Positions 3,328 through 11,398 of a stretch of 64,000 nucleotides of DNA are shown one piece after another. Position 1 is the stretch's first letter. Each line of letters starts with the position of its first letter. The stretch is from Mangrovimonas sp. ST2L15 (GTDB lineage Bacteria > Bacteroidota > Bacteroidia > Flavobacteriales > Flavobacteriaceae). A model generated the notes under the pieces. It had not been told where the DNA came from. It saw only the letters and a program-made list of their open reading frames with translations, and did no database searches. The translations under genes and the position numbers were made by a program. The DNA is taken from the NCBI RefSeq assembly GCF_001280515.1, contig NZ_LBIQ01000030.1:1742501-1806500 (forward strand), in the 5' to 3' direction.

Positions 3328-6224
<2,897 letters not shown>

Positions 6225-6330: not shown

Positions 6331-7656
6331 ATGCGTAGGAAAGGATTCATCATCGTTTGCCTTCTTTTGCTTGTCATAGTCATAGGAACTTTACTTTTTC
6401 TGAAATCGGACCGTGGACACAAAATGAGTGAAAATGCTGCAGTTAGGGTAGTGGAAACCAATGAAGGTTATGAACTTTTAAAAAATGGTAAACCCTTCTA
6501 CATAAAAGGCGCTTCTGGAGATGGATATATCCAGGAGTTAGTTCAAGCTGGCGGCAATACAATTCGACTTTATGATACCATCAATACAACTAAACAGCTT
6601 GATGTAGCATATCAAAAAGGGGTGTCGGTAATTTTGGATATCCCTTTACCAGATTATGGAAGAGGTAAATGGACCTATTCAGATGATCAAGGAGTAAAGA
6701 ATTTAACTACCTACGTCCAAAAATATGTAAATAAACATAAAAATCATCCAGCTTTACTTTATTGGAATTTGGGAAATGAACTTATCTATCCCCTAACTAT
6801 TTTTCCTAATCGATTTACCGAAACTGTCAATGATTTAATAGATTTGATTCATGAGGAAGACCCTAACCATCCTATAGCAACTACTGTAGCTGGAACATCT
6901 CGAGCCCAAACTTTAGGTATTCATTTGCATTCACCTAAGTTTGATTTAATAGGCTATAATGTTTTTGGTAGTGTGAAAATTTTGGATAAAACCCAAAACC
7001 AATTATCTTATTTTTTAAAGCTGAAGCCTTACTATATAAGTGAATGGGGAGATCAAGGACCTTGGGAGGCAAATAATGAGTATTGGTTTTCAATCCAAGA
7101 AAAAAAGGGGAGTGAGAAAGCTAGAGGGTATTTCAGGACTTACCAAGATAATATTCTAAATAATCATTCAATGCTAGGATCTACAGCCTTCTATTGGGGC
7201 CAAAAGTTTGAAGGTACTCCTGATTGGTTCAATATTTTTGATGAAAAGGGCTATAAATCTCCAATTTATTATGCCTTAAAATCAAGTTGGGAAAAAACAG
7301 ATCTCATTTATCCTTTAGAGATTGTTTATTTAAAATTTAAAAATTTATCTTCTAAAGATAATCGTATTTTTCGTCCAGAAGAGCCACTAGAAATGGAAAC
7401 GTTGGCACAATCTAATTATTCAGATTCTTTAACTTACGAGTGGAATCTTTACAAGGAAAGTTCAAGTATATACGAGGGGTGGAAATTATTGAGCTCAGAG
7501 TTTAATTTAAAAGGCAAGGGTGAAGAAATTAACTTTAATACCCCTGAAGAAGAAGGTGCATATCGAATGGTTTTAAGGGTATATGACAACCAACAAAATT
7601 ATTCGACAGCAAATATTTCGTTTTACGTCCTGAATCCTAATGACAAAAAAGAATAA
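6331..7656 (+). CDS. Membrane-anchored glycoside hydrolase, GH2-like TIM barrel
   Basis: A 441-residue protein with an uncleaved signal anchor (about residues 4-25) and an exported TIM-barrel domain at about 40-320. The likely acid/base is E150 in WNLGNEL and the likely nucleophile is E238 in YISEWGDQG; both placements match clan GH-A (GH2/GH5-like) retaining glycosidases. A beta-sandwich-like C-terminal domain (about 335-441, around W371) follows. The stop overlaps the start of the synthase gene by 17 bases, so the two are co-translated. It probably trims or processes the polysaccharide made by the synthase. The exact GH family and substrate are not settled by reading. Confidence 0.8.
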   Translation: MRRKGFIIVCLLLLVIVIGTLLFLKSDRGHKMSENAAVRVVETNEGYELLKNGKPFYIKGASGDGYIQELVQAGGNTIRLYDTINTTKQLDVAYQKGVSVILDIPLPDYGRGKWTYSDDQGVKNLTTYVQKYVNKHKNHPALLYWNLGNELIYPLTIFPNRFTETVNDLIDLIHEEDPNHPIATTVAGTSRAQTLGIHLHSPKFDLIGYNVFGSVKILDKTQNQLSYFLKLKPYYISEWGDQGPWEANNEYWFSIQEKKGSEKARGYFRTYQDNILNNHSMLGSTAFYWGQKFEGTPDWFNIFDEKGYKSPIYYALKSSWEKTDLIYPLEIVYLKFKNLSSKDNRIFRPEEPLEMETLAQSNYSDSLTYEWNLYKESSSIYEGWKLLSSEFNLKGKGEEINFNTPEEEGAYRMVLRVYDNQQNYSTANISFYVLNPNDKKE

Positions 7657-10600
7657 AAATCAAAATAGCCTACGTATTTTAAGAGTGATGATTCTGATAG
7701 GAGTCCTCAGTCTCATTAATTTTTTCTATTGGTTTTTTAAACCAGATTTAGTTGAAAACAGACCGTTGTTTCTTCTTTTAACTTGTGTTATCTTTTTTGA
7801 TACGTTTCGATTGTTATACACGTGGTATCATTATTGGGGTATTTCAATTCCTAATAAACCAAAACATAGGACTTCCTATAAGGTAGATGTATTTACTACA
7901 TTTTGTGATGGTGAGCCCATAGATATGGTTACCCAAACCCTTTTGGCTATTAAGAAAATGGATTATCCGCATGAAACTTATTTATGTGATGAAGATGATA
8001 ATGCATACCTAAAAAATTTCTGTAAAGAAAATGGAATAATACATGTGACTAGAACAAGTAAGGAAAATGCAAAGGCCGGTAATATTAATAATGCCCTTAA
8101 AATAGCTACCGGTGATGTTTGTGTTATAATGGATCCTGACCATGTGCCGGAAACCAATTTTTTAACCGAGTTATTACCCTATTTTGAAGATGAAAAAATA
8201 GGATTTGTGCAGTCTGTTCAAGGATACTACAACCAGAATGAATCCAAAGTAGCTTTGGGTGCGGCAGAACAAACCTATCAGTTCTATGGTCCTGTTATGA
8301 TGTCCATGAATTCTTATGGTACAGTAAATGCTATTGGAGCGAATTGTGTTTTTAGAAGGAAGGCTTTGGATTCCATAGGAGGGCATTCTCCAGGCCTTTC
8401 TGAGGATATGCATACGGCGATGCAATTGTATGCCAAGGGTTGGAAATCGGTATACGTTCCTAAAATGCTTACCAAAGGATTAGTACCATCAACTTTAAGT
8501 TCTTATTTCAAGCAACAATTAAAATGGTCTAGAGGAACCTTTGAGTTATTAATCAGTGTTTTTCCTAAATTATTTTCAAATTTCACTTTAAGGCAGAAGT
8601 TGCATTTTGGAATTATTCCCTTGCATTATCTTGCGGGGATCGTCTACTTTTTTGTTTTATTGATTCCTATTCTCTCTTTATTTTTTAGTACCACTCCATG
8701 GCGAGGAAATATTTATAATTTTTGGCTCATTACACTTCCTATTTTTGCCTCTATTCTAGGGATAAGGTTATTTGTTCAAAAATGGATCATTAAAAAATCG
8801 GAAAGGGGAATGCATATCACAGGTGGATTGCTTTTTCATACAACCTGGTCTATATTCATATTAGGAGTCTTTTATAGTTTGATTAGGAAAAAGATCCCCT
8901 ATATCCCAACCCCCAAAACAGGTGAAGATAAAACGCCTTTTGCCTTGATAGCGCCTAATTTATTTATGGGAATTCTAAGTGTTGCAGCAATTATTTATGG
9001 CTTGCAACGTGATTTTACACCATTTTCGCTTTTCATGTCTGGTTTTGCATTATGGAATGCAAGTGATATGTTTTACACTTTAGTATTCGCTTTTGAAAAG
9101 ACCAATCCCATTTCTATTGAAACTAGTGAGGTAGAAATTAAAAAATCATTTTTCAAAAATCAATTTTTTAATTTCTGGCAAAGTGCAGGGATTATTATTG
9201 TGTTGATCATATTTGGACTCAGTGTTTACTTTCAAGTTCAAAACGAAAAACTTAAACTTAATGGAGTAGTGGTTGAAGAAATGTTTGAAGCTCCAAAATT
9301 AACTTATCTAGGTTGCTATTATCCTGAATCCGACAATGGTTTCACAAGTTTAAAAAGAGCTAATCAGTTTTCCGCAAATCACGAATTTCATCCAGATATT
9401 ATTTCTGTTTACCTTCCTTGGGATAAAAATATAGAATCAACATTTCCTTCAAACTATTTAGATTCAATTTTCATTAATAAGTCCTTGCCTCTTATCACAT
9501 GGGAGCCGTGGCTAAATAGTTTTCAAATAGAAAGACAAGAAAATAGAAATGTTTATCAATTGATTAATGAAGGGGTATTTGATGTCTATATAACTCAATT
9601 TGCGAAGAAGCTTAAGGAATTAAAAAAGCCAATTTTTTTAAGATTTGCTCATGAGTTTGATAATCCATTTTATCCTTGGTTTGTTGAAGGTGAAGCGCAA
9701 TCATTTCAATTTAAAGAGGCTTGGGTAAAGGTTCATAGTATTTTTAATGAAGTAAAAGCTCATAATGTCATATGGGTATGGAATCCTTGGAAGAGCGAGA
9801 ATGTGAAGGCTTTTTATCCAGGAAATGATTTTGTTGATTGGATTGGTTTGGACATTCTTAATTATGAATCAAATAAAGATTCTAAAGGTTGGTATTCCTT
9901 TGATGAATTGTATACTTTTTTTAGAGATAATTTAGATGGTGTCTCTGATAAGCCGGTAATCATTGCCGAATTTGGTAGTGTTGGAAATGATAAAGAAAGT
10001 CAGGCTAATTGGATTGAAAATGGAATTTCAGACTTGCAGAGTAAATACCCAGAAATTCAGGCCGTTGTATTTTTTAACAGTAGGGTGGATGATAATATTC
10101 CTGTGGGAATCCAAAATGAAGAACTTGTATATGATTGGACATTTAAGGATGGTGTTGAGTTAAATTTTGGTAAGTTTAAAAGGAATAATAAATTATATTC
10201 ACATTATTCACTTTTAGAAAATAGAAAAGTTGATGAAAATTTCAATATTCAGGATAATACTTTTGCAGGAAAGAAGCTTAGGGAGACAAATATTTATGGT
10301 GTTAACATAAATAAAGGCCAAAACTGGAAAAGTGACTACCATGTTTTAAATAGAATTAATTTGAAAAAGGATTTTCAAAGAATGAAAACTGCAGGAATAA
10401 ATACAGTTAAATTCATTGAAAATACTACCTATGACTACAATTTACTTGAAATTAGTAAAGAGAACGAACTTAACGTTAACTACAGTTTTTTTATTCCATT
10501 AAACACTAACTTTTTAGAGGTTAATAAAGAAACTGATGAGTTAAAAACAAATATTCTAAAAAGGGTAAGGAAGTATCAAAAATATAATCATATTATATCA

Positions 10601-11398
10601 TGGAGTTTTGAAAATGATTTTTACTCCAAACTTCCTAATAATATTAAAGAACCGGACCTTACTCTATATAGAAACGGCTATTTAAATTGGTTGAAAACCG
10701 TGGTTTCTGGAATACGACAAATTTCAGATGAAAATATTTTCATTGGAATAGAAGGAGAGGGAAACCTTTTAAATAAATTGGAGTTTTATTCAGATGTTTT
10801 TAAACAAGATATCGGGATTAATATACAGCTAAAGAGTGATCAGTTGCAAGAAGGGGCTTGGGATTACATAAATAATCTTGGAGTTCCAGTTTCCTTAGAT
10901 TATTTAGGTGATGAAATCTCAACTAATTGGAAAGAATTAGCAAATGGAAAGTCATTTTATTATGTATCATGGCAAGATCAATTTGCAATAAATAAGTTAA
11001 CGTTTGATGGTTTAATTGATAGGAAGGGAAGATTGAAAAATAAGTATTTTGATTTCATTGAAAGCTTTGGAGAGCCCAAGTTTAAATATGATGCTCCGAA
11101 CATTAAAATATTAAAACAAAATAAAACTTTCTACCCAGGAAACGTTGTAGTGTGTTATGCCATGTTTTATGGTGATAGAATAGGATGGGAAATGGGGGGT
11201 AATCAAGGAAACTATAGATATGAATGGAATTTATTAAAATACAAAGGGGAAAAAGAATGTATTTCTATTGAGAAAGTAGGAGAGGGAAGTGAGGTTTATT
11301 TAAAAGTTCCAAAAGACCCGAATAGTTATAAATTGATGTTAACCGTAATTGACAAAGAAAATGTAGTGACACAAACATTTACAGATTTAAAACCATAA
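7640..11398 (+). CDS. GT2 polysaccharide synthase fused to a GH26-like glycosidase and a degenerate glycosidase
   Basis: A 1252-residue membrane protein in three parts. Residues ~13-66 hold two membrane helices. The GT2 domain follows, with cellulose-synthase-type motifs: DEDDN (D117-N121), DPD (D165, D167), SED (E255-D256) and QQLKW (Q292-W296, with K in place of the usual R of QxxRW). A multi-helix C-terminal membrane region contains YIPTPKTG, like the FxVTPKG gating-loop motif, and ends in a helix near 511-533. Residues ~552-860 form a GH26-like barrel with acid/base E672 (RFAHEFD) and nucleophile E777 (IIAEFGS). Residues ~880-1252 resemble the preceding gene product but lack both catalytic glutamates (D993, S1110). 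Probably a processive beta-glycan synthase with built-in processing; the polymer is unknown. Confidence 0.85.
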   Translation: MTKKNKNQNSLRILRVMILIGVLSLINFFYWFFKPDLVENRPLFLLLTCVIFFDTFRLLYTWYHYWGISIPNKPKHRTSYKVDVFTTFCDGEPIDMVTQTLLAIKKMDYPHETYLCDEDDNAYLKNFCKENGIIHVTRTSKENAKAGNINNALKIATGDVCVIMDPDHVPETNFLTELLPYFEDEKIGFVQSVQGYYNQNESKVALGAAEQTYQFYGPVMMSMNSYGTVNAIGANCVFRRKALDSIGGHSPGLSEDMHTAMQLYAKGWKSVYVPKMLTKGLVPSTLSSYFKQQLKWSRGTFELLISVFPKLFSNFTLRQKLHFGIIPLHYLAGIVYFFVLLIPILSLFFSTTPWRGNIYNFWLITLPIFASILGIRLFVQKWIIKKSERGMHITGGLLFHTTWSIFILGVFYSLIRKKIPYIPTPKTGEDKTPFALIAPNLFMGILSVAAIIYGLQRDFTPFSLFMSGFALWNASDMFYTLVFAFEKTNPISIETSEVEIKKSFFKNQFFNFWQSAGIIIVLIIFGLSVYFQVQNEKLKLNGVVVEEMFEAPKLTYLGCYYPESDNGFTSLKRANQFSANHEFHPDIISVYLPWDKNIESTFPSNYLDSIFINKSLPLITWEPWLNSFQIERQENRNVYQLINEGVFDVYITQFAKKLKELKKPIFLRFAHEFDNPFYPWFVEGEAQSFQFKEAWVKVHSIFNEVKAHNVIWVWNPWKSENVKAFYPGNDFVDWIGLDILNYESNKDSKGWYSFDELYTFFRDNLDGVSDKPVIIAEFGSVGNDKESQANWIENGISDLQSKYPEIQAVVFFNSRVDDNIPVGIQNEELVYDWTFKDGVELNFGKFKRNNKLYSHYSLLENRKVDENFNIQDNTFAGKKLRETNIYGVNINKGQNWKSDYHVLNRINLKKDFQRMKTAGINTVKFIENTTYDYNLLEISKENELNVNYSFFIPLNTNFLEVNKETDELKTNILKRVRKYQKYNHIISWSFENDFYSKLPNNIKEPDLTLYRNGYLNWLKTVVSGIRQISDENIFIGIEGEGNLLNKLEFYSDVFKQDIGINIQLKSDQLQEGAWDYINNLGVPVSLDYLGDEISTNWKELANGKSFYYVSWQDQFAINKLTFDGLIDRKGRLKNKYFDFIESFGEPKFKYDAPNIKILKQNKTFYPGNVVVCYAMFYGDRIGWEMGGNQGNYRYEWNLLKYKGEKECISIEKVGEGSEVYLKVPKDPNSYKLMLTVIDKENVVTQTFTDLKP

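Follow-up and report, generated by a model that had tools for sequence, protein, structure and literature searches.

A GT2-GH26-pseudo-GH158 fusion protein and an overlapping GH158 gene as a candidate beta-glucan synthesis and trimming module in Bacteroidota

Why would a polysaccharide synthase carry glycosidase domains in its own polypeptide chain, and which polymer would such a protein make? The question is raised by two adjoining genes in a 64,000-nucleotide stretch of the genome of Mangrovimonas sp. ST2L15, a member of the Flavobacteriaceae (contig NZ_LBIQ01000030.1, positions 1,742,501 to 1,806,500; hereafter the window). A first-pass annotation, made from the letters of the DNA, had described one gene product as a processive GT2 synthase continued by a GH26-like barrel and a dead glycosidase, had noted a 17-base overlap with the gene of a second glycosidase, and had proposed a self-contained system that makes and cuts one beta-glycan. 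Our analysis confirmed both the open reading frame (ORF) and the 17 bases that it shares with its neighbor on the same strand (Table 1), and identified the neighbor as a member of family GH158. We propose, at close to even odds, that the two genes form a system in which a beta-glucan synthase with a tethered periplasmic glycosidase, assisted by a GH158 enzyme in trans, would give a length-limited product with 1,3 or mixed 1,3/1,4 linkages.

The N-terminal part of the fusion protein has the features of a processive-type GT2 synthase. Pfam GT2 profiles match residues ~98-347, and in an AlphaFold model of residues 1-852 (predicted local distance difference test score, pLDDT, 87.5; predicted template modeling score, pTM, 0.65) the nearest solved fold is that of E. 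coli BcsA (9b8v; Z 36.3 over 473 residues, root mean square deviation 2.6, 21% identity). Two N-terminal transmembrane (TM) helices are predicted to precede the cytoplasmic glycosyltransferase domain, which would be followed by helices at 317-348 and 358-382, an interface helix at 393-414, helices at 434-457 and 461-485, and a last TM helix within 497-541. Hydropathy, charges and the model concur in placing the C-terminal barrels beyond the inner membrane, on the predicted periplasmic side. Most of the motifs listed in the first-pass annotation are near-invariant in our 86-row family alignment: besides DPD at 165-167, the window protein has D117, found in 84/84 rows with a letter at that position, and the ED pair at 255-256, both residues of which occur in 85/85 rows. 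N121 did not hold up as a motif residue, since the family has D at that position in 80 of 86 rows. The lysine of QQLKW (K295), earlier singled out as distinctive, is a conservative change and proved to be a signature of the clade, being present in all 85 scorable rows and also in the unfused relatives L138-L140; the corresponding motif is QRIRW in BcsA, QRERW in the BgsA-like Rhizobium protein of locus L112, and QEFQW in the GT2s of L113, L114, and L141. The gating-loop-like YIPTPK aligns with FNVTAK of BcsA and FRVTPK of the BgsA-like protein, and its T424 and K426 occur in 86/86 rows. The best NCBIfam model for the fusion is CelA, at 164.2 bits against a cut-off of 699.1. Pfam gave no PilZ match in the fusion at E-values up to 0.1, and a cyclic di-GMP (c-di-GMP) switch acting through PilZ was rejected on that basis.

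The domain that follows the synthase belongs to GH26 (Pfam PF02156 at residues 639-753 with 46.1 bits; cut-off 20.2). By sequence (E 3.5e-21) as well as by fold (Z 30.0), its best match is the lichenase CtLic26A; AlXyn26A, a mixed-linkage xylanase, reaches Z 23.0 and the listed mannanases Z 20.5-22.3. The two glutamates earlier proposed as catalytic, E672 and E777, lie in register with the CtLic26A motifs, in keeping with the GH26 catalytic pair that follows strands 4 and 7, and a placement of the barrel outside GH26, which would have spoken against the original assignment, was not found. The likeness to CtLic26A suggests a substrate of the lichenase type. Together with the GH158 partner, it favors a 1,3-containing beta-glucan over mannan as the product; the first-pass annotation had guessed at beta-mannan or a mixed beta-glucan, and the latter guess agrees better with these scores.

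The product of the upstream gene matches solved GH158 proteins over nearly its full length (9oro, E 2.2e-44; 6pal, E 2.6e-33), and a profile of the upstream family (A2) does so at 3.4e-104 and 2.3e-96, respectively. Its sole Pfam match above cut-off is to a related GH2 barrel profile. BuGH158 is described as an endo-beta-1,3-glucanase with catalytic residues E137 and E220 (PMC7157763). The equivalents of E150 and E238, as well as the barrel tryptophan, are present in 40/40 upstream-type proteins, a chosen subset of those found.

The third barrel, read earlier as a dead glycosidase, is also of the GH158 type and has lost both catalytic glutamates. Although Pfam yielded no barrel match over this region of the window protein, hhalign matched 37 third barrels to the upstream family with 99.8% probability (E 4.7e-29), and a model of the barrel (pLDDT 87.9) gave Z 27.4 to GH158(Pro) 9p26 and 26.2 to BuGH158 over ~330 residues that include the immunoglobulin-like (Ig-like) domain, the next structure having Z 23.2. 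Assignment to GH26 or GH2 was rejected, with GH158 heading the fold list by ~3 to 4 Z units; for the third barrel of L067, GH158 structures outscore all others by sequence. In the two relatives with intact third barrels that were scanned (L063 and L067), Pfam reported GH2_C and GH72 matches. Origin by recent duplication of the upstream gene was likewise rejected, because a single branch with 100% support in the Shimodaira-Hasegawa-like approximate likelihood ratio test (SH-aLRT) parts 40 upstream from 28 third-barrel rows in a quick tree; a branch with full support also separates the 22 dead third barrels sampled from the six live ones. Among the 74 dead third barrels of the window and L002-L080, the tryptophan aligned with upstream W289 is kept in 70 of the 72 that have a letter there, and the aspartate two residues past it in 72/72, so the dead site still seems to be under selection. 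We take the retained tryptophan to be a sugar platform, as is usual in clan A.

Table 1. Features of the two-gene module in the window (positions counted from its first nucleotide).
Feature	Position	Strand	Description or basis
GH158-family glycosidase gene	6331..7656	+	441 aa; signal-anchor-like N-terminal stretch, TIM barrel, C-terminal Ig-like domain
Upstream GH158 catalytic E150	6778-6780	+	motif alignment with BuGH158
Upstream GH158 catalytic E238	7042-7044	+	motif alignment with BuGH158
Upstream GH158 barrel Trp W289	7195-7197	+	alignment of upstream-type proteins
GT2-GH26-pseudoGH158 fusion	7640..11398	+	1252 aa; relatives found at full length
Membrane GT2 synthase part, residues 1-541	7640..9262	+	hydropathy, charge, AlphaFold model, BcsA fold match
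QQLKW motif, residues 292-296	8513..8527	+	K replaces R of QxxRW
Gating-loop-like YIPTPK, residues 421-426	8900..8917	+	stands in place of FxVTxK
GH26 domain, ~residues 555-825, lichenase-like	9302..10114	+	Pfam PF02156 above cut-off; CtLic26A match
GH26 acid/base E672	9653-9655	+	aligned with CtLic26A motif
GH26 nucleophile E777	9968-9970	+	aligned with CtLic26A motif
Third barrel and Ig-like domain, ~residues 880-1252, GH158 pseudo-enzyme	10277..11395	+	hhalign, model fold
Third-barrel acid/base position D993	10616-10618	+	catalytic Glu lost
Third-barrel nucleophile position Y1088	10901-10903	+	catalytic Glu lost
Third-barrel retained Trp W1111	10970-10972	+	barrel Trp kept

The two genes are coupled well beyond the window. 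A GH158 ORF lies at most 200 bp upstream on the same strand in 75 of the 84 fusion ORFs outside the window, and the two ORFs overlap in 59 of the 84 loci, by exactly 4 bp in 31. The nine exceptions comprise L022, where the GH158 gene is present and the fusion ORF is broken; L031 and L076, which lie at a contig edge; L063, where the GH158 gene is divergent; L067, L069, L072, and L077, where it lies downstream on the opposite strand; and L075, where no GH158 gene was seen near the fusion. Chitinophaga japonensis carries a tandem double copy of the pair (L050:1518-11762). In two Gelidibacter loci, the GH158 gene is split over two ORFs (L020:6644-7973) or the fusion ORF is interrupted (L022:8001-11762), in either case by an assembly error or because the gene is a pseudogene.

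The fused architecture recurs across Bacteroidota in a patchy manner. A scan of genome contigs gave 165 relatives. The best 80 were kept; they fall in 79 distinct loci and carry titles of Bacteroidota and Balneolota. In a phylum sample, 16/395 genomes match at E 1e-50: seven have the three-part fusion, and in an eighth it is fragmented over two contigs; two combine a GT2-pseudoGH158 protein with a separate GH26 gene whose glutamate pair is intact; in four the GT2 carries a decayed GH26 and no other barrel; one encodes GT2 and GH26 in separate genes; and in the last, the fetched stretch shows a GT2 and none of these partners. In an order sample, 82/296 genomes match at E 0.001, mostly through other GT2s or lone GH26 proteins, and the fusion occurs in six (the window's genome, G000, and G079, G283, G164, G059, and G067, the last cut at the locus end). 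With these low counts the distribution is patchy. The GT2 tree places the Balneolota copy L013 in the midst of copies from Bacteroidota, which suggests transfer. The only GH26 match and the only full GH158 match in the 3.56-Mb window genome are those of this pair; two further matches to the GH158 profile are short and partial, within frames of 829 and 812 aa. The idea of a make-and-cut system is supported, as are the recurrence of the module and the lack of other such genes in this genome.

Which of the fused barrels is live varies within the family. We called a site live when both catalytic glutamates were present in the alignment, and counted states over 81 fusions (the window and L002-L080), because some genomes had been sampled twice (L115 and L012, for instance, have the same motifs). 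GH26 is live and the third barrel dead in 70 of them, the reverse holds in five, both are live in one, and in L076, cut by a contig end, GH26 is live and the third barrel could not be scored. Both third-barrel glutamates are present in L063, L067, L069, L072, L075, and L077. The five reverse cases form one clade in the GT2 tree (100/100), so the reciprocity of decay rests on about one event; in this clade the GH158 gene is not upstream, being downstream on the other strand in four members and not seen in L075. None of the 74 dead third barrels has the acid/base glutamate, 16 have a glutamate in the nucleophile column and two have a gap there; among nine dead GH26 domains, the nucleophile is kept in five and the acid/base residue in one. 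Since catalytic loss is often partial, weak residual activity is conceivable outside the window. In L066 and in the first tandem copy of L050 (L050b), the GH26 glutamates are present in degenerate surroundings. L131 and L132 have no fused GH26 and show the split order GH158, GT2-pseudoGH158, GH26, with the glutamate pair present in the GH26 gene directly downstream. Across the proteins examined, the intact GH158 enzyme, as judged from its motifs, is the constant element, while the fused GH26 is usual but dispensable.

On the reading that we favor, the GT2 part would use a nucleotide sugar, probably UDP-glucose, to polymerize a beta-glucan, and would thread the nascent chain through its own membrane channel. 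The chain would leave the channel beside the C-terminal periplasmic GH26 domain, where the lichenase-type barrel could cut or transfer its ends, and the decayed GH158 barrel, having kept its sugar platform, may hold or steer it. The GH158 enzyme from the overlapping gene would cut or re-join stretches with 1,3 links. What results is probably a glucan of limited length, either periplasmic or released; the families of the two glycosidases, lichenase-like GH26 and GH158, argue for 1,3 or mixed 1,3/1,4 links, while a periplasmic fate is suggested by missing exporters and by analogy with known systems.

The combination of a GT2 and a glycosidase in cis is a known principle. A pseudomonad GH17-TM-GT2 protein has been proposed to cyclize beta-1,3-glucan at its channel exit (PMC10237404); like the fusion, it combines in one chain a BcsA-like GT2 on the cytoplasmic side, a channel through the membrane, and a TIM-barrel glycosidase in the periplasm. 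Its GH17 domain, however, is N-terminal, whereas the fusion has an N-terminal GT2, C-terminal GH26 and decayed GH158 domains, and no GH17 match in Pfam; it further differs in its separate GH158 partner gene, its QxxKW motif, and its Bacteroidota and Balneolota hosts. The opgGH operon is similar in pairing a glucanase-family protein with a membrane GT2 in two genes, but it is described as involving GH186, beta-1,2-glucan, and separate proteins (PMC10514313), and the window's genome has no match to the MdoG/GH186 profile PF04349. With BcsA and BcsZ, the fusion shares the GT2 fold, the gating loop, and an associated periplasmic endoglucanase; unlike them, it has no PilZ match, scores far under the CelA cut-off, and carries its glycosidase, of GH26 type, in the same chain. 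Romboutsia ilealis RiGT2, a GT2 with D,D,D,Q..W motifs, makes 1,3;1,4-beta-glucan; it has QRDRW and a PilZ domain, and no fused glycosidase is mentioned in the excerpt of its description (PMC10374906), in contrast to the fusion with its QQLKW and no PilZ match. The top results of open-access literature searches, of which only some were directed at this point, held no description of the GT2-GH26-GH158 domain set and order with its pseudo-barrel and partner gene.

Relatives on plasmids bear on the product. Among the 40 matches listed, of 793 in a plasmid collection, the lowest E-values (1e-43 to 8e-43) belong to Rhizobium GT2s, including that of L112 (2e-43, 30.7% identity), which has an HlyD gene before it; BcsA matches at 1e-34 with 26% identity. 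The mixed-linkage-glucan operon bgsBA also consists of an HlyD gene and a GT2, and a mixed-linkage product such as that of the rhizobial BgsA would suit a lichenase-type GH26; BgsA differs in its HlyD-like partner BgsB and its cytoplasmic C-terminal c-di-GMP-binding domain, and the excerpt of the paper mentions no hydrolase in cis (PMC9495663). A Sinorhizobium meliloti plasmid (L113:389-7893) carries genes for an AraC-type regulator, two epimerase-family proteins, a GT2, a DUF995 protein, a GH26, and another DUF995 protein. We take this to be, probably, the arabinose-containing polysaccharide cluster; its pairing of GT2 and GH26 is more distant from the fusion. A Sulfitobacter plasmid (L114:1913-6705) has genes for a UDP-glucuronic acid decarboxylase, galE, a GT2, and a GH26-like protein annotated as beta-mannosidase, whose 19 bits in Pfam fall just below the GH26 cut-off of 20.2.

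Could the glycosidases serve another product or another reaction? It is improbable, in our estimate, that the synthase makes a non-glucan polymer (a beta-xylan, an arabinose-containing polymer or a beta-mannan) that GH26 would cut. GH26 does include beta-1,3-xylanases and mannanases, as the PDB matches illustrate, and the L113 and L114 GT2s, which with their GH26 genes adjoin UDP-glucuronate decarboxylase and epimerase families, stand next to the fusion family in the GT2 tree, albeit with hardly any support (83/24). Yet the fused GH26 fits the lichenase better than AlXyn26A by 7 Z units and better than the listed mannanases by at least 7.7, its conserved partner belongs to GH158, and L113, L114, and L141 have GT2s that form a separate clade (100/100) with QEFQW rather than QQLKW; beta-mannan in particular is disfavored by these sequence and fold comparisons. 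A somewhat unlikely variant is that both the GH26 and GH158 units act as transglycosylases, closing the growing glucan into rings or adding branches to it. Both families have a retaining mechanism, a GH72 glucanosyltransferase profile matches the intact third barrels of L063 and L067 above its cut-off, and the closest known architecture, the GH17-TM-GT2 of pseudomonads, is proposed to cyclize its beta-1,3-glucan; CtLic26A and BuGH158, the best PDB relatives, are nevertheless both described as hydrolases.

We also consider it unlikely that the polymer is a secreted, high-molecular-weight exopolysaccharide and that the hydrolases only clear stalled periplasmic chains or set chain length, the roles ascribed to BcsZ in cellulose export. 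BcsZ, a periplasmic endoglucanase annotated in L111, accompanies BcsA in cellulose operons. In L138 (3314-7828) and L140 (4111-8370), an unfused sister arrangement, genes for a tetratricopeptide repeat (TPR) protein, GT2, and GH26 are adjacent and separate, in that order, and TPR proteins are frequent in export systems. Against this, neither an exporter nor any other third gene family is widespread beside the pair in 85 fusion loci (a number that includes many short loci and L081, the window's own copy), the next commonest neighbor occurring near 13/85, and an adjacent exporter was rejected on this ground; the window's genome has no BCSC_C (BcsC-type porin) domain, other exporter types not having been searched. 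Such a role would also leave the dead third barrel without explanation.

Several observations weigh against the reading that we favor. Periplasmic retention, drawn from missing exporters and from analogy, is its weakest step. Four of the 81 fusions have lost catalytic glutamates in both in-cis barrels, as have L083-L086 where covered, and L133-L137 retain only a decayed GH26; live cutters in cis are evidently not required, judging by these motifs, and a need for at least one live fused barrel was rejected on the four cases. The GT2 tree sets the family beside the L113, L114, and L141 GT2s and not beside BcsA or the BgsA-like row; given the long branches of BcsA, the BgsA-like row, L139, and L141, the absence of CrdS, and the scant support of the deep fork (83/24), we relied on this tree for the family clade only. 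The gene sets of L113 and L114 hint that GT2 and GH26 pairs can serve a pentose polymer. Finally, we found no biochemical data on any member of the fusion family.

If the proposed system is real, it would provide Bacteroidota with a dedicated family of beta-glucan synthases that unites synthesis and cutting in one chain and keeps a dead glycosidase beside a live one. It would open to experiment the control of nascent glycan length or shape by a hydrolase, the role of a pseudo-glycosidase, and the occurrence of periplasmic or mixed-linkage glucans in Bacteroidota. The GH158 and GH26 genes of this module may serve synthesis, and tallying them as polysaccharide degradation could mislead.

Two further gene families accompany part of the fusion loci. 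A membrane-anchored GH26 of ~570 aa with HEMEIP and TEFGVKGP motifs lies near 13/85 loci (L005:807-2555, L006:4678-6393, L131:7862-9550, and relatives); three members scanned gave no Pfam match. Strong matches to it occur in 8/17 genomes in which one or more barrels are fused to the synthase, in 0/2 with the split arrangement, and in 0/17 controls that lack the synthase (Fisher p 0.003, with kinship ignored and all 17 controls from the window's own family). It is absent from the window's genome and present in L147 and L148, whose genomes have no fusion match; with strong matches in only 8 of the 17 fused-synthase genomes, it was rejected as an obligatory partner. A ~833-aa membrane protein of the sulfatase/LtaS/OpgB superfamily (PF00884) lies near 8/85 loci (among them L005:2603-5104, L006:2171-4681, L067:11773-14208, and L072:11822-14248), too few for a core part. 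Full-length-strength matches were found in three of the same 17 genomes and in 0/17 controls; the window's genome lacks it at full length and has weak matches only (best 1.4e-8). It has threonine in 8/8 members and lacks C/S-x-P-x-R over the stretch scanned; its best NCBIfam score is 74 bits of 481, to an arylsulfatase model. The threonine and the lack of that motif presumably mark a phosphoglycerol-type rather than a sulfatase activity, and the protein is a possible glucan-decorating transferase.

With these families in view, one may ask whether the module gives Bacteroidota an equivalent of osmoregulated periplasmic glucans: a periplasmic glucan with 1,3 links, made with one live and one pseudo-glycosidase in cis and trimmed by GH158, joined in part of the family by the extra anchored GH26 and probable LtaS/OpgB-like decoration, with a live site that can move between the fused barrels or to a separate gene. 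We regard this broader picture as doubtful. In L006, the transferase-like, GH26, GH158, and fusion genes stand in a row on one strand. In the window, a gene for a pentapeptide-repeat protein (5649-6224, minus strand) is divergent from the module; its product is weakly Qnr-like, at 47 bits against a 240-bit cut-off.

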